A DNA stretch of 64,000 bases from Streptomyces colonosanans (GTDB lineage Bacteria > Actinomycetota > Actinomycetes > Streptomycetales > Streptomycetaceae), in NCBI RefSeq assembly GCF_001866645.1, contig NZ_MLYP01000079.1:1-64000 (forward strand). Reading direction: 5' to 3'. Positions within the stretch are counted from its first letter, which is position 1. Every line of letters begins with the position of its first letter. Both the position numbers and the translations under genes were made by a program. A model generated the notes under the pieces. That model searched no databases and was not told the DNA's origin. It saw nothing but the letters and a program-made list of their open reading frames with translations. Below, piece after piece: positions 7,665 through 38,555 of this stretch.

Positions 7665-8933
7665 TCAGCGCAGGTGGGAGGTGTCGTTGAGGAGGCGGAG
7701 GCTGGCGTTGCCGTCGGCGTAGTACGCCACCGCGGTCAGCGAGGCCGCGGACAGTTCCATGCGGAACAGGGACTCGGGGGGCGCGCCGAGGGCGAGGCGC
7801 ACCAGGGTCTTGATGGGCGTGACGTGCGAGACGAGCAGAGCCGTGCGGCCCGCGCGGGAGGCGAGGAGCTGGTCCTGCGTGGCGGCGACCCGGCGGGCGA
7901 CGGCCGCGAAGCTCTCGCCGCCGCCGGTGGGTTCGGCCTCCGGGTCGGCGAGCCAGGCGTCCATGTCGTCCCGGTACCGCTCGCGGACCTCGGCGAACGT
8001 GAGGCCCTCCCAGGCGCCGAAGTCGGTCTCGCGCAGCCCGTCCTCCACACTGACGTCGAGCCCGAGGCGGGCGGCGACGATCCCGGCGGTCTCGCGGCAG
8101 CGGGCGAGCGGCGAGGAGACGACGGCCTGGACGGTCCCCCGCGCGGCCAGCACCCCGGCGACGAGTCCGGCCTGGCGCCGGCCGGCCTCGGAGAGGGCCG
8201 GGTCGGTGCCGCCGCTGCCGGAGAACCGTTTGAGCGGGGTGAGGGGGGTCTCGCCGTGACGCAGCAGCACGAACGTGGTCGGGGTGCCGAGGTCGGGCGG
8301 GGCGGAGGCGATCTGACAAGTGGCCCTCACATCGGCATCGGCCTTCTCCGCCGCTGCCCCGCGGGCCGAGGACGGGGCGGCCGGGACTGCGGTTGCGGCC
8401 GCCAGAGCCGCCCGCGCCCGCGCCGCACCGGCGGCCGCGTCGCCGGGCGGGCCCGCCGGTTCGGGTGCCATGGCGGCACGCGTGTCCAGTTCCGCGGTCG
8501 AGCGGGAGGGCTCCCACCGCTCCCCGCGGCTGCCCGCGTCCATCGCCTCGTTGGCCAGACGGTCCGCGTGCTTGTTCTTCTCGCGCGGGATCCACTCGTA
8601 GGTGACCTGCGCGGCGGGGAAGACGGCGGCGGCCTGCATCGCCAGCGGCTTCATGGCCGGGTGCTTGATCTTCCAGCGGCCGGACATCTGCTCCACGACC
8701 AGCTTGGAGTCCATGCGCACGCGCACCCGCGCGGTCGGGTCCAGCTCGTACGCCGCGCGCAGCCCGGCCAGCAGTCCCCGGTACTCGGCGACGTTGTTCG
8801 TGGCGGTCCCGATGAACTCGGCCCGCTCCGCCAGCGTCTGGCCCGTCGCCGCGTCGCACACCACGGAGCCGTAGCCGGCGGGCCCCGGGTTGCCCCGGGA
8901 ACCGCCGTCGGCCTCGACGATGAACTCCCGCAC
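7665..8933 (-). CDS. Bifunctional RNase H / histidine phosphatase
   Basis: This 422-aa fusion has an RNase HI domain (residues 1-135) with acidic residues D9, E50, D75 and D124 (EADGGSRGNPG, NNVAEYRGL, MDSKLVVEQMSG, KHADRLAN). An Ala-rich linker of about 80 residues follows, then a phosphoglycerate-mutase-like domain with the RHG motif at 225-227. The same fusion is known in mycobacteria (Rv2228c), where RNase H joins a CobC-type alpha-ribazole phosphatase. It should remove RNA from RNA/DNA hybrids and dephosphorylate a B12 precursor. It follows the zinc-ribbon gene by 12 bases. Confidence 0.9.
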   Translation of the reverse strand: MREFIVEADGGSRGNPGPAGYGSVVCDAATGQTLAERAEFIGTATNNVAEYRGLLAGLRAAYELDPTARVRVRMDSKLVVEQMSGRWKIKHPAMKPLAMQAAAVFPAAQVTYEWIPREKNKHADRLANEAMDAGSRGERWEPSRSTAELDTRAAMAPEPAGPPGDAAAGAARARAALAAATAVPAAPSSARGAAAEKADADVRATCQIASAPPDLGTPTTFVLLRHGETPLTPLKRFSGSGGTDPALSEAGRRQAGLVAGVLAARGTVQAVVSSPLARCRETAGIVAARLGLDVSVEDGLRETDFGAWEGLTFAEVRERYRDDMDAWLADPEAEPTGGGESFAAVARRVAATQDQLLASRAGRTALLVSHVTPIKTLVRLALGAPPESLFRMELSAASLTAVAYYADGNASLRLLNDTSHLR

Positions 8934-8945
8934 GCCGTACGCCTC

Positions 8946-9689
8946 TTACAGGCCGGACTCGGAGGTGCGCACCAGGATGCGACGGCAGTTCTCGCAGCGG
9001 ACGACCGTGTCCGGCGCGGCCGTGCGGATCTCGTTCAGCTCGGTGATCGCCAGCTCCTGGCGGCAGCCCTGGCAGGTGCGCTGGTACAGCTTGGCCGCGC
9101 CGATGCCGCCCTGCTGCTCGCGCAGCTTGTCGTACAGCTTCAGCAGGTCCGCGGGCACCGAGCCGGCGATGACCTCGCGCTCCTTGGTCACCGACGCCAC
9201 CTCGCCGTCGATCTCCTCGAAGGCCGCGTCCCGGCGCCCCGTGGCGTCGTCGATCCTCGACTGCACCGAGGCGACCCGCTCGGTCAGCTCGCCGACGCGC
9301 TCCTGCGCGGACTCGCGGCGCTCCATCACCTCCAGGACCACGTCCTCCAGGTCGCCCTGCCGCTTGGCGAGCGAGACGATCTCGTGCTGGAGGTTCTCCA
9401 GGTCCTTGGGGGAGGTGATGGCGCCGGAGTCGAGGCGCTGCTGGTCGCGGGCGGCGCGCTGGCGCACCTGGTCCACGTCCTGCTCCGCCTTGGTCTGCTC
9501 GCGGGCGCAGTCGCTCTCCTCGGTCTGCGCGGCCACCAGCAGGTCGCGCAGCTGCGTGAGGTCCTTGCTCAGCGACTCGATCTCGGCGTGCTCGGGCAGG
9601 GACCTCCGCCGGTGCGCGAGCTGCTGCAGGCGTACGTCGAGGGCCTGGACGTCGAGGAGGCGGATCTGGTCTGCGGGCGCGGCGTTCAG
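8946..9689 (-). CDS. Coiled-coil C4 zinc-ribbon protein
   Basis: This 247-aa protein is a long alpha-helical coiled coil (residues 10-200) followed by a C-terminal zinc ribbon, CQGC...CENC. It belongs to the family of M. tuberculosis Rv2229c and Helicobacter HP0958. The only start consistent with the N-terminus (NAAPADQIRLLDVQALD) is CTG 9689, overlapping the NIF3 stop as CTGA with AGGAG seven bases upstream. No ATG, GTG or TTG occurs nearby in frame. Function is probably nucleic-acid binding or RNA turnover. It forms an operon with its two neighbours. Confidence 0.85.
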   Translation of the reverse strand: MNAAPADQIRLLDVQALDVRLQQLAHRRRSLPEHAEIESLSKDLTQLRDLLVAAQTEESDCAREQTKAEQDVDQVRQRAARDQQRLDSGAITSPKDLENLQHEIVSLAKRQGDLEDVVLEVMERRESAQERVGELTERVASVQSRIDDATGRRDAAFEEIDGEVASVTKEREVIAGSVPADLLKLYDKLREQQGGIGAAKLYQRTCQGCRQELAITELNEIRTAAPDTVVRCENCRRILVRTSESGL

Positions 9690-10549
9690 TTGGGGGCTCC
9701 TGTGGAGTGAGTGGCGGCGGACGCCGCGTGGGCGGTCCAGGGGTCGGTGACCGTTTTCGAGACGTGGACGCGAAGGCCCCATCCGTGGCGGTCGGAGATC
9801 TCGTCGAGCTGAGCGGCTGCCAGCTCGCACCAGGGCCATTCGGTGGCCCAGTGCGCCGCGTCGAGCAGCGCGAGAGGACTGTGGGCGCGATCCGCCATGA
9901 ACTCTGACGCCGGGTGGTGGCGCAGGTCCGCGGTGAGGAAGGCGTCGACGCCGGCTGCGCGGACGTCGTCGAAGAGGCTGTCGCCGGAGCCGCCGCTGAC
10001 GGCGACCGTACGGACGACGGCGTCGGGGTCGCCGGCGACGCGGATGCCCTGCGCGGTGGCGGGCAGCCGTTCGGCGGCACGGGCGGCCAGCTCGCGGACG
10101 GTCAGCGGGTGGTCCAGCTCGCAGATGCGGCCGAGGCCCCGGCGGCCCTCCGGGTCGGTCGTGTCCGGTACGAGGGGGCGCAGGATCCGCAGGTCGAGCG
10201 CGCCGGCGAGAGCGTCGCTGACGCCGGGATCGGCCCGGTCGGCGTTGGTGTGGGCGACGTGCAGCGCGATGTCGTTCTTGATGAGGGTGTGCACGGCGCG
10301 GCCCTTGAAGGTGGAGGCCGCCACCGTCGTGGTGCCGCGCAGAAAGAGCGGGTGGTGGGTGACCAGCAGGTCCGCACCCAGCTTCACCGCCTCGTCGACG
10401 ATCTCCTGGACGGGATCGACGGCGAAGAGGACCCGGGAGACCTCCTGGTCGGGGTCGCCGACGACCGTGCCGACCGCGTCCCAGGACTCGGCCCGCTCGG
10501 CAGGCCACAGGGTTTCCAGCGCGGCGATGACTTCAGACAGACGGGGCAC
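9686..10549 (-). CDS. NIF3 / YbgI-family dinuclear metal protein
   Basis: This 287-aa protein carries the NIF3 family metal ligands, for example LLVTHHPLFLRG near residue 70, HTNAD near 105 and the late EFMADRAHSPLALLDAAH. Databases often call it 'GTP cyclohydrolase 1 type 2', but its in vivo role is unsettled. The start is taken as GTG 10549 (VPRLSEVIAALE), where homology begins. The open frame upstream is not conserved in character. First gene of the NIF3, zinc-ribbon, RNase H operon. Confidence 0.85.
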   Translation of the reverse strand: MPRLSEVIAALETLWPAERAESWDAVGTVVGDPDQEVSRVLFAVDPVQEIVDEAVKLGADLLVTHHPLFLRGTTTVAASTFKGRAVHTLIKNDIALHVAHTNADRADPGVSDALAGALDLRILRPLVPDTTDPEGRRGLGRICELDHPLTVRELAARAAERLPATAQGIRVAGDPDAVVRTVAVSGGSGDSLFDDVRAAGVDAFLTADLRHHPASEFMADRAHSPLALLDAAHWATEWPWCELAAAQLDEISDRHGWGLRVHVSKTVTDPWTAHAASAATHSTGAPN

Positions 10550-10781
10550 GGGGAAAAGGCTACCTGGCCCGGGTCTGTGCCCCACCGGGTCACGGGGGCG
10601 ACCGGCCTTTCGGACGGCATGGGGTCGCGCATGGAGGGGCCGTGCACTCCCCTCGCGCAGCACATCCGCCCCTTTTCCTCAGGCGAACGGCGAGACGAAC
10701 ACCCTTATGTGTGAAGCGGTCCCCGGGGATCCCACACCTGTGCGTACGAAAACTAGTTTCGTGGCCGGAGGTGACCGAACG

Positions 10782-12128
10782 ATGACGATCTGTGCCTTTA
10801 CGGCCGCGGCCGAGAACGGGAACGCGTGGGCGGCCCGGCCCGGTTGTGTGATCACCGCGGAAGGCTCCTACGCGGCGCGGCTCGCCCGGCACGGCGAGTC
10901 CTGGTACCCGGAGCGCTGGACCCTGGGCGGACCGGAACCGTACGCCGTACCGCTGCCCGGCCATCAGCCGGAGGAGCCCGGCACCGAGGTGCAGCCGATG
11001 ACCGACGGGCGGGTGCTGGTCCACCGTGCCATGGGCGGGCGGCACACGTTCTCGCTGCTCTATCCGACGGGCCCGGGGACCGGGGAGCTGGCGCTGGGTG
11101 CGGTGGAGTGCCCGGGCGCGGGGAGCCGGCTGCGACTGCTTCCGCCCTCGCCGACGGGGAACCGCGCCTACGCGCTCGCGGTGGACGGTGACACGACGAC
11201 GGTGTGGCTGGTGGCGGGCGGGGCGCACGGGCCCGAGCGCCTGGCCCGGGTGCCGGCCCGCTGCGGCGGCGGGGTGTGGCTGGACCGTGCGGGCCGGATG
11301 CTGGCCCTGGACCGCGTGCCGGAGGGGGGTCCCACGAAGACGGTGGTGGTGGATCTGGCGCGGGGCGGGGAGGTGTCGCCGCTGCTGGAGATCACGGAGG
11401 AGAGCGACGACCGGGTACTGCTCGCGGACTGGGACAGCGGGCTGCTGCTGATCCGCTCGGACGCGCCGTCACCGGGTCACGCCCGGCTGGGGTGGGGGGT
11501 GTTGGGGAGCACGCTGCCGGTGCGCTTTCCGGAGTGCCTGCGCCTGGGCTCCGCCTCCGTGACGCCGTTCGCGATCCAGCCGGGGCAGATGCTGACGCCG
11601 GAGAGCTGTGCGGTGGCACTGCGGATCGACGGGGCGGCGGGCAGTTGGGTCGGGGTGTGGCGCCCGGCACACCGCACGGTCCAGCATCTCGCGCCGCCCG
11701 CGGGCTGGTTGGCGGGGGCGGGGCTGTGGACGCCGGAGGGGGTGCTGCGGCTTCCGTATGCGACGGAGGCGGTGCGGTGCGGGGTGGCGCGGCTGGCGGT
11801 GCCCGGGGGAACAGTCCCGCCCGTCAAGGAGCCCTCCGCGCGGCCGGGTCCGGACTCCGGGGAGCGGGGGGCGGCACGGCCGGTGCCGTTGCAGCAGGCG
11901 CCGCTGTGGGAGCGTACGGCGAGCGGTGCCGCCAAGGTGCGCAGGCCGCTGGCGGAACCGGCGCGCAGAACGCCGGCGGCTGCGGTACGCAATCCTCCAA
12001 CGGAGGCGGCGCTCAGAACCCCGTCGGAACCGGTACACAAACCTCCGGCGGAAGCGGCGGGGACGCCTCCGGCCGAAGTGACGAAGACTTCTCCGGCTGG
12101 CAACGCGCCTGTCATGGCCGCCCGTTAG
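10782..12128 (+). CDS. Hypothetical protein with Pro/Ala-rich repeat tail, 448 aa
   Basis: GGAGGTG lies 8 bases before ATG 10782. The first 330 residues are rich in Trp, Gly and short beta-like segments (VWLVAGGAHGPERLARVP, SWVGVWRPAHRTVQHLAPP), suggesting a WD-like or propeller fold; I do not recognise a named family. The C-terminal 90 residues form a degenerate repeat of about 10-13 residues (RTPAAAVRNPPTEAALRTPS). There is no signal peptide or membrane helix. A 10-bp palindrome AAACTAGTTT sits at 10750-10759 in the leader. Confidence 0.65.
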   Translation: MTICAFTAAAENGNAWAARPGCVITAEGSYAARLARHGESWYPERWTLGGPEPYAVPLPGHQPEEPGTEVQPMTDGRVLVHRAMGGRHTFSLLYPTGPGTGELALGAVECPGAGSRLRLLPPSPTGNRAYALAVDGDTTTVWLVAGGAHGPERLARVPARCGGGVWLDRAGRMLALDRVPEGGPTKTVVVDLARGGEVSPLLEITEESDDRVLLADWDSGLLLIRSDAPSPGHARLGWGVLGSTLPVRFPECLRLGSASVTPFAIQPGQMLTPESCAVALRIDGAAGSWVGVWRPAHRTVQHLAPPAGWLAGAGLWTPEGVLRLPYATEAVRCGVARLAVPGGTVPPVKEPSARPGPDSGERGAARPVPLQQAPLWERTASGAAKVRRPLAEPARRTPAAAVRNPPTEAALRTPSEPVHKPPAEAAGTPPAEVTKTSPAGNAPVMAAR

Positions 12129-31987: not shown

Positions 31988-32065
31988 GACCGGATCGTAT
32001 CTGCGCCAGTACGCATGGGGCCCGTCCCGCACAGGCGGCTCCTGGATGCGTCCGTACGGGCCGGT

Positions 32066-32178
32066 AGAGTGTGCGCGTCGTCATCACACCTGAACGAGGG
32101 GAAGCCGGTGCAATTCCGGCGCTGACCCGCAACCGTGTGCCGCCTCACGGCGGTGAGCCGGATCGCCTCGCACAGGAC
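32066..32178 (+). promoter_or_regulatory. Cobalamin riboswitch
   Basis: The conserved cobalamin-riboswitch core is plain: GGGGAAGCCGGTGCAATTCC then GGCGCTGACCCGCAACCGTG (32099-32137). The outer P1 stem can form from TGTGCG (32071) and CGCACA near 32169. Downstream to about 32300, GC-rich inverted repeats (CCACCGGCAGCCCGCCGGCGG) may act as the expression platform. It precedes an exported protein plus a complete ECF transporter, so the operon should be shut off when B12 is plentiful. Confidence 0.9.
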
Positions 32179-32307
32179 ATGACCGGCTCATGCCACCGGC
32201 AGCCCGCCGGCGGCAGGCACCGTCGAGGCATGCGGGGCCGGAGCCGCCCGGTTGCCACCGTGTGCCCGTGCGCCCCGGCCTCCCACAGGGAGAGGCATCC
32301 GCCGATC

Positions 32308-33534
32308 ATGATCGTTCGCCGCACCGCAGCGGTACTGGCCGCCATAGCCGTGATCGGTGGCGCCCCCGCACCGGCCGCCCTCGCCGCCTCCCCGTCCCCT
32401 TCCCCGGCTCTCCCCTCCGAGCTGTACGGCAGCACGGACCCCACTTACGACGGCGTCTGGCGCCAGTCGTTCGCACTGCTCGCCCAGCACACGGCCGGTG
32501 TGCGGCCGGCCGCGAAGGCCGTGGACTGGCTCACCGGACAGCAGTGCGCGAACGGCGCCTTCGCCCCCTACCGTGCCGACCCGAAGGCCGCGTGCGACGC
32601 GAAGACTCCCGTCGACACCAACAGCACCGCGGCGGCCGTCCAGGCGCTGGCAGCGCTCGGCGGGCACGACGCCCAGACCGGCAAGGCCGTCTCCTGGCTG
32701 AAGTCCGTGCAGAACGAGGACGGCGGCTGGGGCTTCACCGCGGGCGGCGCGAGCGACACGAACTCCACGTCCGCGGTCATCGGAGCACTGTCCGCCGCCG
32801 GCGGGGCATCGGCACCGCAGGAGGCGAAGTCCGCGAAGGGCCACTCGCCGTACGACGCGCTGGTGAAGCTGTCGATCCCCTGCGACCGGAAGGACGGCGG
32901 CGCGTTTGCCTACCAGCCGGACAAGAAGGGCGAGTTGGCGGCGAACGCGGACGCGACTGCCGCGGGTGTCGTAGCCGCACTGGGCAAGGGCTTCGTGGCC
33001 GGTCCCGGCAAGGAGGCCGGGAGCGCCGCGTGCGCCGGCGGCGACAAGCTCACCCCCGCCGACGCGGCGCACAACGGTGCCGTCCACCTCGCCGGGGCCC
33101 TGAAGAAGACCCCCTACCTGGAGACCGCGCTGCCGGGCGCGAAGCCTCAGCCCGACTACGGCAACACGGCGGACGCGGTCGTCGCCCTCGCCGCGACGGG
33201 GTCCCCGTCCGCCGCGCAGCGCCCGCTCGAATGGCTGGAGAAGAACGCCGCCGACTGGGCCGCGAAGTCCGGACCAGCCGCATACGCCCAGCTGATCTTC
33301 GCGGCGCACGCGACGGACACCGATCCCCACAACTTCGGCGGCGTGGACCTCGTCGAGAAGCTCAACGCGACGGGCCCGGCCCCGCAGACGGCCGAGAAGA
33401 CCAAGAAGACCGACGAGACCCACAAGAAGTCCGACTCCGGCTTCGGCGTCTGGTGGTACGTCGGCGTCTTCGTGGTCGCCGGCATCGGCATCGGCTTCCT
33501 GCTGTCCGGCCGCTCCAGGAAGCAGCAGCCGTGA
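32308..33534 (+). CDS. Exported, membrane-anchored terpene-cyclase/transcobalamin-like toroid protein
   Basis: This 408-aa protein has a signal peptide (1-27, ending APAALAAS). An extracellular helical-toroid domain follows, with prenyltransferase/squalene-oxidase type repeats (KAVDWLTGQQCANGAFAPYR; SWLKSVQNEDGGWGFTAGGA). Then come a charged linker and a C-terminal membrane helix with a basic tail (WWYVGVFVVAGIGIGFLLSG RSRKQQ). Human intrinsic factor and transcobalamin bind B12 with the same fold class. Under a B12 riboswitch and ahead of an ECF transporter, a surface corrinoid-capture role is likely. ATG 32308 lies about 12 bases after GGGAGAGG. Confidence 0.8.
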   Translation: MIVRRTAAVLAAIAVIGGAPAPAALAASPSPSPALPSELYGSTDPTYDGVWRQSFALLAQHTAGVRPAAKAVDWLTGQQCANGAFAPYRADPKAACDAKTPVDTNSTAAAVQALAALGGHDAQTGKAVSWLKSVQNEDGGWGFTAGGASDTNSTSAVIGALSAAGGASAPQEAKSAKGHSPYDALVKLSIPCDRKDGGAFAYQPDKKGELAANADATAAGVVAALGKGFVAGPGKEAGSAACAGGDKLTPADAAHNGAVHLAGALKKTPYLETALPGAKPQPDYGNTADAVVALAATGSPSAAQRPLEWLEKNAADWAAKSGPAAYAQLIFAAHATDTDPHNFGGVDLVEKLNATGPAPQTAEKTKKTDETHKKSDSGFGVWWYVGVFVVAGIGIGFLLSGRSRKQQP

Positions 33535-34145
33535 TCCGCCGCGGTACGGCCGTCCTGGCCCTGGCCCTGCTGGTCCTCTTCACCGGCGGCCAGGCGCATG
33601 CCACCGGCTACCGGTACTGGTCCTTCTGGGAGCGCCAGGGCCAGGCGTGGACGTACGCCACCCAGGGCCCCTCCATGGCGCGCCCGGCCGACGGGGACGT
33701 CCAGGGGTTCCGGTTCGCGGTCAGCGAGGACTCGCAGCGGGCCACGAAGCCGCGCGGCGCGGCGGACTTCGCCGCGATCTGCGCGAAGACGCCCGCGCTG
33801 GCCGGTGAGAAGCGGGTGGCGCTCGTCCTCGACTTCGGCACGACGGCGGACGCCTCTCCGGGCGAGACCCCGCCCGCCCCGCGCACGGTCTGCGCCCGGA
33901 TCGCCGAGAACGCCACGACCGCGGACGCGCTGGCGGCGGTGGCCCCGCCGCTGCGCTACGACACCAACGCCCTGCTGTGCGCGATAGCGGGCTACCCGCA
34001 GAAGGGGTGCGCCGAACAGGTACGTCAGGACGCCGCGCCGAGCAAGCCGCACCACACCCCGTCGGTGGGCGTACTGGCGGGCGCCGTCGTCGTGGCCGCC
34101 CTGGGCGCGGGCGCGATATGGCAGGCGCGCCGCCGCAGGAGCTGA
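33531..34145 (+). CDS. Exported, membrane-anchored partner protein in the B12 operon
   Basis: GTG 33531 overlaps the previous stop. The 204-aa product has a signal peptide (1-24, ...GGQAHA), an extracytoplasmic domain beginning TGYRYWSFWERQGQAWTYAT, and a C-terminal membrane helix (VGVLAGAVVVAALGAGAIW) with a basic stop-transfer tail. I know no named family. Its exclusive setting between the toroid protein and the transporter suggests it completes the capture complex, perhaps the counterpart of the C-terminal beta domain of transcobalamins. Confidence 0.75.
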   Translation: MIRRGTAVLALALLVLFTGGQAHATGYRYWSFWERQGQAWTYATQGPSMARPADGDVQGFRFAVSEDSQRATKPRGAADFAAICAKTPALAGEKRVALVLDFGTTADASPGETPPAPRTVCARIAENATTADALAAVAPPLRYDTNALLCAIAGYPQKGCAEQVRQDAAPSKPHHTPSVGVLAGAVVVAALGAGAIWQARRRRS

Positions 34146-34147
34146 CC

Positions 34148-35236
34148 ATGGCACCCCGATCCCGCCGCGGCGGGCCGACCGTGCACCCGGGCGCCTGGTG
34201 GCTGTGGGCGCTCGGCCTCGGCACCGCCGCCACCCGCACCACCAACCCGCTGCTGCTCGGCCTGCTCGTGGCCGTGTCCGCCTACGTGGTCGCGGCCCGT
34301 CGCACCGCCGCCCCGTGGTCCCGTTCCTACGCGGCCTTCGTCAAGCTCGGCCTCGCCGTCCTCGTCATCCGGCTCGTGTTCGCCGTGGTCCTCGGCTCCC
34401 CGATCCCCGGCACCCACATCGTCGTCACCCTTCCCGAGGTCCCCCTCCCCCACTGGGCCCAGGGCATCCGTATCGGCGGCCAGGTCACCGCGGAGGGCCT
34501 TGTCTTCGCCCTGTACGACGGTCTGAAGCTGGCCACCCTGCTCATCTGCGTCGGCGCCGCGAACGCCCTCGCGAACCCCGCCCGGCTCCTCAAGTCCCTT
34601 CCGGGCGCCCTGTACGAGACGGGTGTCGCCGTCGTCGTCGCGCTCACCTTCGCCCCGCATCTGATCGCCGACGTCCAGCGCCTGCGCGCCGCGCGCCGGC
34701 TGCGTGGCCGGCCCGACCGGGGCCTGCGCGGTCTGCTGCAGGTCGGACTCCCGGTCCTGGAGGGCGCGTTGGAGCGCTCGGTCGCCCTCGCCGCCGCGAT
34801 GGACGCGCGCGGCTTCGGCCGCACCGCCGATGTTCCGCCCGCCGTCCGCCGTACCACCACCGCCCTCACGCTGAGCGGTCTGCTCGGTGTCTGCGCAGGC
34901 ACCTACGGACTGCTGACCGCGGAAGGCGGCGTCTACGGGCTGCCCCTGCTGCTCAGCGGGCTGGCCGCCGCCCTCGCCGGGCTGCGGCTCGGCGGGCGCC
35001 GCTCGCCGCGCACCCGCTACCGCCCGGACGTATGGGGCGCACGGGCCTGGATGGTCGCCGGTTCGGGTATCGCGACGGCGGCGCTGCTGGCCGTCTGCGC
35101 CGCGTACGACCCCGCCGCCCTGCGCCCCGGCGTCGTCCCCCTGACCGCCCCGACGCTCCCCCTGCTCCCCGCGGCGGCGGTGCTGCTCGGTCTGCTGCCC
35201 GCGTTCGTCACCTCCGCCCCCGAGGAGTCCGCGTGA
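34148..35236 (+). CDS. ECF transporter T component (CbiQ-like)
   Basis: This 362-aa membrane protein has the EcfT/CbiQ signature with two Ala-Arg-Gly type coupling helices (the later one is ALAAAMDARGFGR) and about eight hydrophobic segments. GGAG precedes ATG 34148. It is longer than usual because of extra C-terminal helices. It would connect the S component to the ATPases in the cobalamin-regulated operon; the overlap with the next gene shows coupling. Confidence 0.88.
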   Translation: MAPRSRRGGPTVHPGAWWLWALGLGTAATRTTNPLLLGLLVAVSAYVVAARRTAAPWSRSYAAFVKLGLAVLVIRLVFAVVLGSPIPGTHIVVTLPEVPLPHWAQGIRIGGQVTAEGLVFALYDGLKLATLLICVGAANALANPARLLKSLPGALYETGVAVVVALTFAPHLIADVQRLRAARRLRGRPDRGLRGLLQVGLPVLEGALERSVALAAAMDARGFGRTADVPPAVRRTTTALTLSGLLGVCAGTYGLLTAEGGVYGLPLLLSGLAAALAGLRLGGRRSPRTRYRPDVWGARAWMVAGSGIATAALLAVCAAYDPAALRPGVVPLTAPTLPLLPAAAVLLGLLPAFVTSAPEESA

Positions 35237-36942
35237 TCCGTTTCGAGAACGTCTCGGTGACGTACGACGGGGCGTACGAACCCGCCGTCCAGGACATCGA
35301 CTTCACCGTCCCGGAGGGTGAACTGACGCTGCTCGTCGGCCCGTCCGGGACCGGCAAGTCGACGGTGCTCGGCGCGGTGAGCGGACTGGTCCCGCACTTC
35401 ACGGGCGGCACCCTGCGCGGCCGTGTCACGGTGGCCGGACGCGACACCCGTACACACAAACCGCGTGAACTCGCCGACGTGGTGGGCACGGTCGGGCAGG
35501 ACCCGCTGTCCCACTTTGTGACGGACACGGTCGAGGACGAACTCGCCTACGGCATGGAGTCGTTGGGGCTCGCTCCGGATGTCATGCGGCGGCGGGTGGA
35601 GGAGACCCTGGACCTGCTGGGACTGAACGAGCTGAGGGACCGGCCGATCGCCACCCTCTCCGGCGGCCAGCAGCAGCGCGTCGCGATCGGCTCGGTGCTC
35701 ACCCCGCACCCGAAGGTCCTCGTCCTCGACGAGCCGACGTCCGCGCTGGACCCGGCGGCGGCCGAGGAGGTCCTCGCCGTGCTGCAACGGCTCGTCCACG
35801 ACCTCGGCACGACCGTCCTGATGGCCGAACACCGACTGGAACGGGTCGTCCACTACGCCGACCGGGTCGTCCTGCTCCCCTCCTCCGGCGCCCGCCCGGT
35901 CCTGGGCACCCCGCCGGAGGTGATGGCCGTCTCCCCGGTGTACCCGCCGGTGGTGGATCTGGGCCGGCTGGCCGGCTGGTCGCCGCTGCCCCTGACCATC
36001 CGCGACGCCCGCCGCAGCGCGGGCGAGCTGCGCGAGCGCCTCGCGGACATCGCACCCGTGAACGGCCGCCTCCCGCACGGGGACACGAGCCCGCGCAAGG
36101 ACCCGAACCCACGCCCCGAAGTCCCGGCCCCGCGCCGCTTCCTGCGCCGACGCACCACGCGCACCGCCCCGGACACCTCAACCCCCCACCCCGCGGCGGC
36201 CGTCACCGCCCTCGCCGTCCACCGCGACCGCGTCGAGGCCCTGCGTCACGTCGAGCTCACCGTGACCCCGGGCGAGACCGTCGCCCTCATGGGACGCAAC
36301 GGCGCCGGGAAGTCCACGCTGCTCGCCGCGCTCGTCGGGCTCGTGGAACCGACCCGCGGCTCGGTGCGGGTCGGCGGCGCGGTGCCGCACCGCGCGGCAC
36401 CGCGCGACCTGGTGCAACGAGTGGGCCTCGTCCCGCAGGAACCACGGGACCTGCTGTACGCGGACACGGTGGCCGCCGAGTGCGCCGCGGCCGACCGGGA
36501 CGCGGGTGCCGCCGAGGGCAGCTGCCGGGCCCTGGTGTCCGAACTGCTGCCGGGCGTCGGGGACGACACGCATCCCCGGGACCTGTCGGAAGGGCAGCGG
36601 TTGGCGCTGGCCCTGGCCGTCGTACTGACGGCCAGGCCCCCGCTGCTGCTCCTGGACGAGCCCACGCGCGGCCTCGACTACGCGGCCAAGGCCCGTCTGG
36701 TCTCCATATTGCGCGCTCTCGCCGCCGAGGGGCACGCCATCGTGCTGGCCACCCACGACGTCGAGTTGGCCGCCGAGATCGCCCACCGCGTGGTGGTCCT
36801 CGCGGACGGCGAGGTCGTCGCCGACGGCCCCACCGCCGACGTGGTGGTCGCGTCCCCGTCGTTCGCACCTCAGGTGACCAAGGTCCTGGCCCCGCAGCGA
36901 TGGCTCACGGTCTCCCAGGTCCGGGAGGCGCTGTCGTCATGA
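35233..36942 (+). CDS. ECF transporter fused A-A' ATPase
   Basis: The 569-aa protein holds two ABC ATPase domains. Domain 1 spans about 1-230 (Walker A VGPSGTGKST, signature LSGGQQQRV, Walker B VLVLDEPTSALDP). Domain 2 spans about 315-560 (MGRNGAGKST, LSEGQRLALALA, LLLLDEPTRGLD). The first A loop has the 'VGPSGTGKST' form and the second signature is LSEGQ. GTG 35233 overlaps the T-component stop. It powers uptake through the adjacent T and S components. Confidence 0.9.
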   Translation: MIRFENVSVTYDGAYEPAVQDIDFTVPEGELTLLVGPSGTGKSTVLGAVSGLVPHFTGGTLRGRVTVAGRDTRTHKPRELADVVGTVGQDPLSHFVTDTVEDELAYGMESLGLAPDVMRRRVEETLDLLGLNELRDRPIATLSGGQQQRVAIGSVLTPHPKVLVLDEPTSALDPAAAEEVLAVLQRLVHDLGTTVLMAEHRLERVVHYADRVVLLPSSGARPVLGTPPEVMAVSPVYPPVVDLGRLAGWSPLPLTIRDARRSAGELRERLADIAPVNGRLPHGDTSPRKDPNPRPEVPAPRRFLRRRTTRTAPDTSTPHPAAAVTALAVHRDRVEALRHVELTVTPGETVALMGRNGAGKSTLLAALVGLVEPTRGSVRVGGAVPHRAAPRDLVQRVGLVPQEPRDLLYADTVAAECAAADRDAGAAEGSCRALVSELLPGVGDDTHPRDLSEGQRLALALAVVLTARPPLLLLDEPTRGLDYAAKARLVSILRALAAEGHAIVLATHDVELAAEIAHRVVVLADGEVVADGPTADVVVASPSFAPQVTKVLAPQRWLTVSQVREALSS

Positions 36943-37760
36943 CATCCCCTCAGCCGCGGCCTGTGCCGGTCCGTCTCGGCCCCCGCTCCCTGGCCGCCCT
37001 CGCCCTGGTCAGCGCGGTCGGCGTCATCGGCTTCACCTGGCCCCTGTTCGCCGACCCCTCCTCGCAGCTCGGCGCGCACGCGCAGGACGCGCCCTGGCTG
37101 TTCGCCGGGCTGCTCGTGCTGCTCGTCGCCGTCGTGGCCGCGACGATCGCCGAGTCGGGGCTCGGACCGAAGGCCGTGGCCATGCTCGGCGTGCTCGCCG
37201 CGACCGGCGCGGCCCTGCGGCCCATCGGTGCCGGGACCGCCGGCCTCGAGCCGATGTTCTTCCTGCTGGTGCTGAGCGGGCGGGTGCTCGGGCCGGGCTT
37301 CGGGTTCGTGCTCGGTGCCGTGACCATGTTCGCGTCCGCGCTGCTGACGGGCGGGGTCGGGCCATGGCTGCCGTTCCAGATGCTGGCCATGGGGTGGTTC
37401 ACGCTGGGGGCGGGACTGCTGCCGGGACCGGGACGGCTGCGGGGCCGCGGCGAGGTGGCGATGCTCACGGGATACGGGTTCCTGGCCTCGTTCGCCTACG
37501 GCACGGTCATGAACCTGGCCGGCTGGCCCTTCATGGACGCGCTCGCCTCGAACGCCGCCTACGACCCGCACGCCGACCTCGCCACCAACCTCACCCGCTT
37601 CCTCGCCTACTGCCTGGCCACCTCGCTGGGCTGGGACCTGGGCCGGGCCACCGTCACGGTCGTCCTGACGTTCTTCCTCGGCCCGCCGGTCCTCAGGGCA
37701 CTGCGCCGGGCGACCCGGAGGGCAGCCTTCGAGAGCCCGGTCACGTTCGAGGCGGGTTAG
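36939..37760 (+). CDS. ECF transporter S component, probable cobalamin type
   Basis: This 273-aa membrane protein has six to seven hydrophobic segments and is the last gene of the riboswitch operon (ATGA overlap). ECF S proteins set the substrate; the family resembles CbrT-like proteins predicted for cobalamin in Actinobacteria, for example PMFFLLVLSGRVLGPGFGFV and the late TSLGWDLGRATVTVVLTFFL. The riboswitch supports B12 or a precursor as cargo, but sequence alone cannot exclude another cobalt- or corrinoid-linked substrate. Confidence 0.85.
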   Translation: MTSPQPRPVPVRLGPRSLAALALVSAVGVIGFTWPLFADPSSQLGAHAQDAPWLFAGLLVLLVAVVAATIAESGLGPKAVAMLGVLAATGAALRPIGAGTAGLEPMFFLLVLSGRVLGPGFGFVLGAVTMFASALLTGGVGPWLPFQMLAMGWFTLGAGLLPGPGRLRGRGEVAMLTGYGFLASFAYGTVMNLAGWPFMDALASNAAYDPHADLATNLTRFLAYCLATSLGWDLGRATVTVVLTFFLGPPVLRALRRATRRAAFESPVTFEAG

Positions 37761-37978: not shown

Positions 37979-38135
37979 TACGGGTCATTGCAGACACCCC
38001 CGGCCGCCTGCTTCTCTGGATCCCGTCGCCAGGCACCGACCGGCCCACCCGGGTCGCGGCGCCGACGCACACCCACTACGTATCGCGTGGTTCCGGTAGG
38101 CCGGCGACCCCTTGTCCCCGACGAAAAGGTGTTCT

Positions 38136-38555
38136 GTGTCCGTCTCCGTCATCCGCCGCATCGCTTCCCCGAAGAAGGCCATCGCCACCGCCGCCGTCGT
38201 CACCGCCGCCGCCGGTATGGCGCTCACCGCGGCGCCCGCTCATGCCGCCACCCCTACTTCGGACCCCGCCTCCGCCCAGGCGATAGCGCGACAGATGATC
38301 AAGGACCCCGCGCAGTACGAGGCGTTCCACAAGATCGTCTCGCATGAGAGCGGCTGGAACGTCCACGCCACCAACGCCTCCTCCGGCGCGTACGGCCTGG
38401 TTCAGGCACTGCCCGCGCACAAGATGTCGTCCGCCGGTTCCGACTGGAGGACCAACCCGGCCACCCAGATCAAGTGGGGCCTGGACTACATGAACTCCCG
38501 CTACGGCAGCCCCGCCGCGGCCTGGAACTTCTGGTCCACCCACCACTGGTACTGA
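38136..38555 (+). CDS. Secreted transglycosylase SLT-like protein
   Basis: This 139-aa protein has a signal peptide (1-32, ending APAHA) and a compact lysozyme-like domain: HKIVSHESGWNVHATNASSG AYGLVQALP, with the catalytic Glu in SHES, and a late WGLDYMNSRYGSPAAAWNFW. Small proteins of this type are abundant in Streptomyces and remodel peptidoglycan, for example in spore germination. GTG 38136 follows AAAAGG. A strong terminator follows. Confidence 0.8.
   Translation: MSVSVIRRIASPKKAIATAAVVTAAAGMALTAAPAHAATPTSDPASAQAIARQMIKDPAQYEAFHKIVSHESGWNVHATNASSGAYGLVQALPAHKMSSAGSDWRTNPATQIKWGLDYMNSRYGSPAAAWNFWSTHHWY

Follow-up and report, generated by a model that had tools for sequence, protein, structure and literature searches.

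A five-gene operon of Streptomyces colonosanans, lying within the first 64,000 nucleotides of contig NZ_MLYP01000079.1 (assembly GCF_001866645.1; this whole stretch, on the forward strand, is referred to as the window), probably encodes a corrinoid (vitamin B12) scavenging system, in which a transcobalamin-like trap, split between two surface proteins that are both circularly permuted and presumed to bind B12, feeds an energy-coupling factor (ECF) importer. The two surface proteins both exceed the curated cut-offs of the NCBIfam models SCO2321_fam and SCO2322_fam, the names of which state no function. Low intracellular cobalamin would, judging by the class of riboswitch in the leader, permit expression of the operon, and the two exported proteins, held on C-terminal helices, would form the halves of the split trap beside the S component of the transporter. 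The beta-grasp protein, SCO2322, would probably be the primary corrinoid binder, with the toroid, SCO2321, closing over it as a lid; the captured corrinoid would be handed to the S component, and the EcfT-AA' motor would drive its import. We infer the identity of the ligand, the order of binding and the handover to the S component. In animal transcobalamin, according to passages of PMC11107200, the two domains sandwich the ligand and each can bind it alone, the beta domain binding first and the alpha domain then closing; the same passages describe organisms that possess the beta domain only. SCO2322 is proposed as the binder and SCO2321 as the lid because the beta half has no neighbouring toroid in 17 loci, whereas among the loci found via the toroid this protein stands alone only at contig ends and in one further locus (L148; L and G numbers denote loci and genomes). 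Such a role would assign a specific function, open to testing, to two NCBIfam families that so far lack one and, if true, would extend the transcobalamin principle, in which beta binds and alpha closes, to a two-protein bacterial surface trap feeding an ECF importer.

An earlier note on this DNA, made from the sequence alone, had described a cobalamin riboswitch ahead of five coupled genes, with T, A-A' and S components following the two surface proteins, and this arrangement holds. All five genes are on the plus strand, adjacent ones sharing 4 bases or sitting 2 bases apart. Both surface proteins have a signal-like hydrophobic N-terminal stretch, recognised by eye, and a predicted C-terminal helix followed by a tail of Arg and Lys residues. 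The note's view of the second as an exported, C-terminally tethered protein is retained, but its family is not wholly unknown, being that of NF040672 (SCO2322_fam), a model with no assigned function. The EcfT subunit and two ATPase stretches score above their cut-offs; the S component, which ECF descriptions in part of PMC5997447 treat as the substrate-binding protein, falls 0.5 bits below that of PF12822, and matches no NCBIfam family. The features of the operon, in window coordinates, are:

32045..32201, plus strand: cobalamin riboswitch aptamer RF00174, operon leader (Rfam 31.1 bits, E 4.1e-6)
32308..33534, plus strand: SCO2321-family protein (alpha half), 408 amino acids (NF053823, 608.7 bits, cut-off 300)
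32413..33036, plus strand: putative toroid hairpins 1-4 (residues 36-243), the second part in canonical relatives (hmmsearch order, hhalign rotation scan)
33037..33387, plus strand: putative toroid hairpins 5-6 (residues 244-360, with DPxxFGGxDL), the first part in canonical relatives (hmmsearch order, rotation scan)
33454..33507, plus strand: predicted C-terminal transmembrane helix of SCO2321 (residues 383-400; predicted helix, hydrophobic stretch, basic tail)
33531..34145, plus strand: SCO2322-family protein (beta half), 204 amino acids, GTG start, 4-base overlap (NF040672, 229.4 bits, cut-off 85)
33606..33725, plus strand: predicted beta-grasp strands S4 and S5 (residues 26-65), N-terminal here and C-terminal in canonical relatives (rotation test, model)
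33807..34022, plus strand: predicted beta-grasp S1, S2, helix and S3 (residues 93-164), C-terminal here and N-terminal in canonical relatives (rotation test, model)
34065..34139, plus strand: predicted C-terminal transmembrane helix of SCO2322 (residues 179-203; model; weakly GPS-CTERM-like, 21.5 bits, cut-off 28)
34148..35236, plus strand: EcfT (CbiQ-family) transmembrane subunit (PF02361, 34.4 bits, cut-off 25)
35233..36942, plus strand: fused EcfA-A' ATPases (PF00005, two stretches, 194 bits; TIGR01166 cbiO above cut-off)
36939..37760, plus strand: S component, substrate-binding membrane protein (PF12822, ECF_trnsprt, 30.2 bits, cut-off 30.7; gene order)

The score of the riboswitch is 0.4 bits under the curated gathering score of 31.5, its E-value coming from a search of 601 bases, and it was absent from a search of the whole window run at the gathering score because it lies just below that threshold. 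The leader RNA was predicted to fold no better than shuffled sequences (z -0.26), therefore the assignment relies on the Rfam match and its conservation. Among 40 regions around SCO2322 matches chosen from varied genomes, 36 carry, in the same orientation, a match to RF00174 that lies 48-410 nucleotides upstream of the first surface-protein gene, and 15 of these 36 exceed the gathering score. The match in this conserved upstream place, in agreement with the relatives, confirms the riboswitch in the window.

Chain order of the two surface proteins

By profile comparison and predicted structure, SCO2322 has, in circularly permuted form, the beta-grasp fold represented by DUF4430 and the transcobalamin beta domain. 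Using hmmsearch, five proteins in four loci (L070-L073) were found to match the SCO2322 profile in swapped order, the C-terminal part preceding the N-terminal part. When a profile of 42 SCO2322 proteins was rotated and aligned with five such canonical-order relatives, the score rose from 77 over 36 columns to 129 over 98 columns (E 5e-23). With 24 actinobacterial DUF4430 domains it rose from 39 over 67 columns to 47 over 100 (E about 8e-8), the range in columns being 65-67 before rotation and 98-100 after it. Shuffling the columns of each target 100 times gave scores no higher than 27.8 and 18.3, respectively. Unrotated, the alignment with DUF4430 covers only the S1-S2-helix-S3 part and not the whole domain; once circular permutation is allowed, the DUF4430 elements are found in both the rotated profile and the strand order of the model. 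The best position for the cut is a plateau at residues 66-96, which coincides with the loop between the model strands at residues 56-65 and 93-101.

The AlphaFold model of SCO2322, based on 66 sequences, has a mean predicted local distance difference test (pLDDT) value of 88.7, with values of 93-98 over residues 31-160. It consists of strands at residues 26-36, 39-42, 56-65, 93-101 and 118-125, a helix at 130-137, and strands at 141-143, 149-152 and 162-164. Compared with the beta-grasp order S1-S2-helix-S3-S4-S5 given in passages of PMC1949818 and PMC1796856, the modelled chain would read S4-S5-S1-S2-helix-S3. Its kinship with transcobalamin runs via DUF4430, which corresponds to the C-terminal domain of transcobalamin according to passages of PMC4350170 and PMC1796856, and not via the sequence of transcobalamin itself. 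The SCO2322 profile found only chance-level matches among PDB sequences (best E 0.15), and the DUF4430 profile found 3u7z, annotated as putative metal-binding (E 1.9e-4), along with one chance match, but not transcobalamin.

SCO2321 can be assigned with confidence, from its model, to the alpha6/alpha6 toroids. The AlphaFold model, based on 72 sequences, has a mean pLDDT of 88.2, with values of 90-98 over residues 41-360, and its 13 helical elements, spanning residues 49-353, may be read as 12 toroid helices, one of them split. A fold search using VIA-align returned toroids with Z scores of 19-24 among the 50 matches listed, the best being drimenyl diphosphate synthase (Z 23.9, root mean square deviation 3.1, 253 residues aligned). 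Model and fold search hence agree with the earlier description of the first gene as encoding an exported, tethered helical toroid.

This protein too is, as judged by sequence profiles, a circular permutant, in this case of the toroids encoded by sister operons with the canonical order, in which the last two hairpins of the toroid come first. Rotation of the toroid profile raised the hhalign score from 287 over 208 columns to 405 over 293 columns for cuts at residues 228-253, and to 407 over 309 columns at the best cut; 60 shuffles scored no more than 23. In addition, the stretch DPxxFGGxDL, of which each protein was seen to have a single copy, lies in the C-terminal part of SCO2321 and in the N-terminal part of the canonical toroids.

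The hairpins of a toroid resemble one another sufficiently to allow profiles to match out of register, and both permutations could in principle be alignment artefacts of such internal repeats. This is very improbable indeed: DPxxFGGxDL marks a single hairpin, which lies at opposite ends of the protein in the two groups, and the rotation of the toroid gains 85-101 aligned columns and around 118 score units. Furthermore, the beta domain, in which no internal repeat was seen, behaves likewise, and its AlphaFold model independently yields the permuted strand order.

Distribution, corrin synthesis and alternative functions

Of the 296 genomes of the class, 112 gave a SCO2322 match (over the curated cut-off in 103), and 27 of the 28 sampled Streptomyces genomes have the protein; freshwater Nanopelagicales assemblies are among the relatives. 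B12-controlled operons of this kind occur in many actinobacteria of soil and fresh water. Of the 40 regions described above, 34 contain a T gene. A second set of 80 loci, found via the toroid and partly overlapping the first, exhibits a fixed gene order: the toroid precedes SCO2322 in 75/75 cases, toroid, SCO2322 and T follow one another in 68/68, and the order toroid-SCO2322-T-S is found in all 55 loci holding the four genes. SCO2322 is missing from five of the 80, four of which are at a contig edge, the fifth being L148. The 17 loci in which the beta half lacks a neighbouring toroid exclude L042, where the edge of the contig truncates the toroid, and this count covers neighbourhoods only.

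A number of loci depart from the common pattern. In the Streptomyces genome G234, a permuted pair lies without a riboswitch or ECF genes nearby (L064); this genome has no CbiC match and carries a canonical operon elsewhere (L072). In three loci from genomes of around 1.4-2.2 Mb (group f25; L045, L058 and L074), SCO2322 lacks the C-terminal tether and no toroid gene was found nearby; here the beta half may be secreted in free form. Three loci labelled as Bifidobacterium breve or an acidobacterium (L106, L115 and L134) have operon genes resembling those of other actinobacterial assemblies, and are possibly mislabelled or misbinned. From about position 1150 of L148 (Peterkaempfera griseoplana) there is no SCO2322, T, A or S gene; the sequence there appears by eye to encode a protein like flavin adenine dinucleotide-dependent monooxygenases, reflecting either a rearrangement or an assembly join.

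The distribution of the corrin synthesis protein CbiC was compared with that of SCO2322 outside Streptomyces, leaving out the 28 genomes of that genus and dropping nine with SCO2322 matches below the cut-off, all of which later showed canonical-order members. CbiC is absent from 67 of the 76 genomes with SCO2322, as against 69 of the 183 without (Fisher p 1.9e-14, a value that treats the genomes as independent, which they are not). A B12-binding domain is encoded in 66 of the 67 genomes that have SCO2322 and lack CbiC, and this pattern of absence fits a salvage system.

Cobalamin riboswitches also govern cobalt transport and B12-independent bypass enzymes. The pair might capture some other ligand needed when B12 is short, such as a corrinoid breakdown product, complexed cobalt or a metabolite from a pathway that depends on B12; the failure of the S component to match any NCBIfam family and the presence of CbiC in the genome of the window would both be compatible with such a role. 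However, the beta half groups with the transcobalamin-beta/DUF4430 fold, the pair accompanies an ECF importer, and the operon is enriched in CbiC-lacking genomes outside Streptomyces, therefore cobalt for corrin synthesis is unlikely to be the cargo there. Overall, a ligand other than B12 seems unlikely.

Several observations weigh against a B12 trap of the proposed form. The association with the absence of CbiC is confounded by phylogeny, and the B12-binding domain is also found in 59 of the 69 CbiC-lacking genomes without SCO2322. CbiC is present in 25 of the 27 SCO2322-bearing Streptomyces genomes, including that of the window, and these strains can probably make corrin rings; in Streptomyces the operon may serve recapture or thrift. 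No riboswitch was found in four of the 40 regions (L042, at a contig edge, L064, L067 and L068), no T gene was seen in six (L054, L056, L064, L067, L068 and L069), and in L148 the toroid is followed by unrelated sequence in place of the beta gene. Neither half is recognised by the domain models of the animal carriers or their relatives: there was no match of SCO2322 to PF14478 (DUF4430) in Pfam up to E 0.5, and none of PF01122 to SCO2321 or to the canonical toroids. With the SCO2322 model as query, Foldseek returned 27 matches at E values up to 10, none of them significant (best E 1.8), and VIA-align a single row with a Z score of 2.4, whilst the best fold matches of SCO2321 are terpene cyclases, the fold in question being a widespread one.

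The lack of sequential PDB matches for SCO2322 is expected of a permutant, yet is no proof of permutation, and the failure of the Pfam model to recognise it is probably the reason that the family remained unnamed. Transcobalamin and intrinsic factor were not among the 50 VIA-align matches listed for SCO2321, which excludes nothing for so common a fold. No match to either was found in a sequence search of the PDB, in which toroid profiles of both chain orders reached squalene-hopene cyclases and no B12 carrier. SCO2321 is tied to transcobalamin solely by its fold class, its place in the operon and its partnership with the beta half. The two-part analogue of transcobalamin proposed in the earlier note is supported in part, on the beta side, as SCO2322 is transcobalamin-beta-like after rotation, and by association on the alpha side; the comparison of predicted structures suggested there yielded the toroid class and the permuted beta-grasp strands, but no significant PDB match for SCO2322. 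Having SCO2322 as the beta-like half makes this proposal much stronger.

As SCO2321 comes closest among solved structures, in both fold and sequence, to class II terpene cyclases and further enzymes with a toroid, it could instead be an enzyme acting on corrinoids or surface lipids, with the beta protein as its docking partner and the substrate processed before import. An invariant set of polar residues (D44, Y47, D48, R52, Q53, Q78 and Q79) in and next to hairpin 1 in the alignment of the family would suit an active site of this kind. Class II terpene cyclases, such as squalene-hopene cyclase, have D-x-D-D as their catalytic motif. This string occurs in only 3 of the 72 family toroids, making such catalysis unlikely; 71 of the 72 have D-x-N-x-T instead, and the thioester motif GCGEQ is present in none. 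Additionally, among the 80 toroid loci, the beta neighbour is missing only at contig ends and in L148. An enzymatic toroid is accordingly regarded as distinctly improbable.

Since the tethered proteins adjoin a complete ECF transporter, and the toroid is absent from some loci, the two might alternatively serve as scaffolding or as surface sensors, stabilising the transporter and not binding cargo. Against this stand the fold kinship with a known B12-binding domain and three loci (L054, L056 and L069) that have the riboswitch and the alpha-beta pair with no T, A or S gene in the fetched region; the pair is therefore regulated as a unit of its own in these genomes, where the transporter may be encoded elsewhere. 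A purely structural role is about as improbable as an enzymatic one, and a split corrinoid trap is the reading that we prefer.

Pairing of the two topologies

The two proteins share their chain order throughout the loci examined. Both genes are permuted in 117 and both canonical in four of the 121 loci that contain the two, with no mixed pair. The profiles used for this count were built partly from the same loci, and six loci duplicating others (L015 and L030-L034) were left out; genomes met twice remain, such that the 119 loci with permuted-profile matches for both genes represent 110 distinct pairs. In an independent check, 20 loci were chosen by canonical beta order alone, and all 13 complete toroids from loci outside those used for profile building were canonical (13/13).

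Searching the class with the canonical beta alignment identified 62 of the 296 genomes, on the basis of matches spanning at least 75 of 113 positions (G032, G043 and G076, where the genes matched are permuted, were left out). None of the 62 is among the 76 non-Streptomyces genomes with permuted SCO2322, and four Streptomyces genomes hold both kinds. The canonical beta order is also that of DUF4430 domains. A toroid gene is present in 6 of 16 DUF4430 regions of the phylum, and in five of these six the DPxxFGG hairpin precedes the repeats, as in canonical toroids (L200 is ambiguous); in L193 and L195 the canonical toroid profile aligns almost end to end. We infer from this that the permuted arrangement is derived.

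In a tree built from the T and S proteins (56 rows), permuted loci are nested inside canonical ones and do not form one clade; a single permuted clade was rejected in the approximately unbiased test (p-AU 0.0002, or 0.0004 without the outgroup). This tree thus fails to support a single origin of the permuted pair, although exchange of alpha-beta pairs between operons would look alike. The orders of the alpha and beta halves switch together in all three well-supported independent pairs and in 5/5 when all branches are considered, numbers too small for significance (p 0.25). Exchange of the alpha-beta pair between operons as a cassette is favoured over repeated permutation.

A tentative explanation, to which we give appreciably less than even weight, is that the permutations are matched: the moved chain ends would relocate each anchor, such that the tethered halves, as they close on the corrinoid, would face the S component in a new orientation. 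The halves would then work only in the same topology, and be inherited or exchanged between ECF operons as one cassette. If true, two neighbouring permuted genes with no mixed topology in the examined loci would constitute an unusual natural experiment on the limits set to a binding pair by chain order and by anchoring in the membrane.

L218 encodes, at 7736-11419 on the minus strand, a relative in which the parts of the trap are fused: a single reading frame comprises a signal-like start, a canonical beta domain, an immunoglobulin (Ig) I-set domain and a toroid, with more toroid-like sequence behind; such a fusion ties the halves together physically. Two further canonical arrangements were observed. 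In L073 (G095), a tandem arrangement of two canonical alpha-beta pairs adjoins a single ECF set, and the same 18 kb contain several cobalamin riboswitches, distributed over both strands. The Streptomyces genome G089 has a canonical operon in which the toroid gene follows S and a short exported DUF4430 (Pfam) gene lies directly downstream (L071/L075), in addition to a permuted operon (L029).

Elsewhere in the window, a small exported protein, which by eye resembles secreted proteins of the transglycosylase/SLT type, is encoded just 3' of the operon (38112-38555, plus strand), and a class A RNase P RNA, an ordinary housekeeping gene, is located at 2395-2796 on the minus strand (294 bits).

Comparison with known systems

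The general idea of B12 scavenging by such proteins was published in 2007, when Burroughs et al. (PMC1796856) proposed that B12 is scavenged in Gram-positive bacteria by SLBB proteins, which are frequently toroid fusions and are encoded alongside CbiO and CbiQ. The operon described here is a variant of this theme, with separate, doubly permuted proteins behind a riboswitch. It shares with the transcobalamin-type SLBB proteins, represented by DUF4430 in Pfam, an exported or anchored beta-grasp, toroids, CbiO/CbiQ genes and a predicted role in B12 scavenging. Unlike the SLBB-toroid fusions that are common there, the proteins here are two separate tethered chains, both permuted, with a beta-grasp missed by Pfam. 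The main text of PMC1796856 does not contain the words Streptomyces or riboswitch, and it was not among the papers found to mention both transcobalamin and circular permutation. The open-licence literature yielded no description of the separate, doubly permuted form and nothing on SCO2322-SCO2325; the one paper retrieved for SCO2321 concerns a skin-delivery peptide.

ECF-CbrT of Lactobacillus delbrueckii, the cargo of which is cobalamin and cobinamide, is likewise an ECF transporter; passages of PMC5997447 describe its S component as itself the substrate-binding protein and mention no surface partner. Unlike ECF-CbrT, the present system has two co-encoded surface proteins, and its ATPases are fused and encoded inside the operon. 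PMC5997447 also describes BtuF-BtuCD, in which, as here, a dedicated capture protein works outside the cytoplasm in front of a B12 importer powered by ATP. Unlike the tethered pair, BtuF is the periplasmic binding protein of the BtuC/BtuD importer. Its fold differs from that proposed for SCO2321 and SCO2322.

Animal transcobalamin, intrinsic factor and haptocorrin likewise combine alpha6/alpha6 and beta-grasp domains, which, according to passages of PMC11107200, sandwich cobalamin. The animal carriers are single secreted chains in the canonical order, whereas the pair encoded here, without a PF01122 match, consists of two membrane-tethered, permuted chains. In the window the alpha and beta halves are accordingly the products of two genes, and it is in the fused relative of L218, with its intervening Ig domain, that they are combined in one chain.

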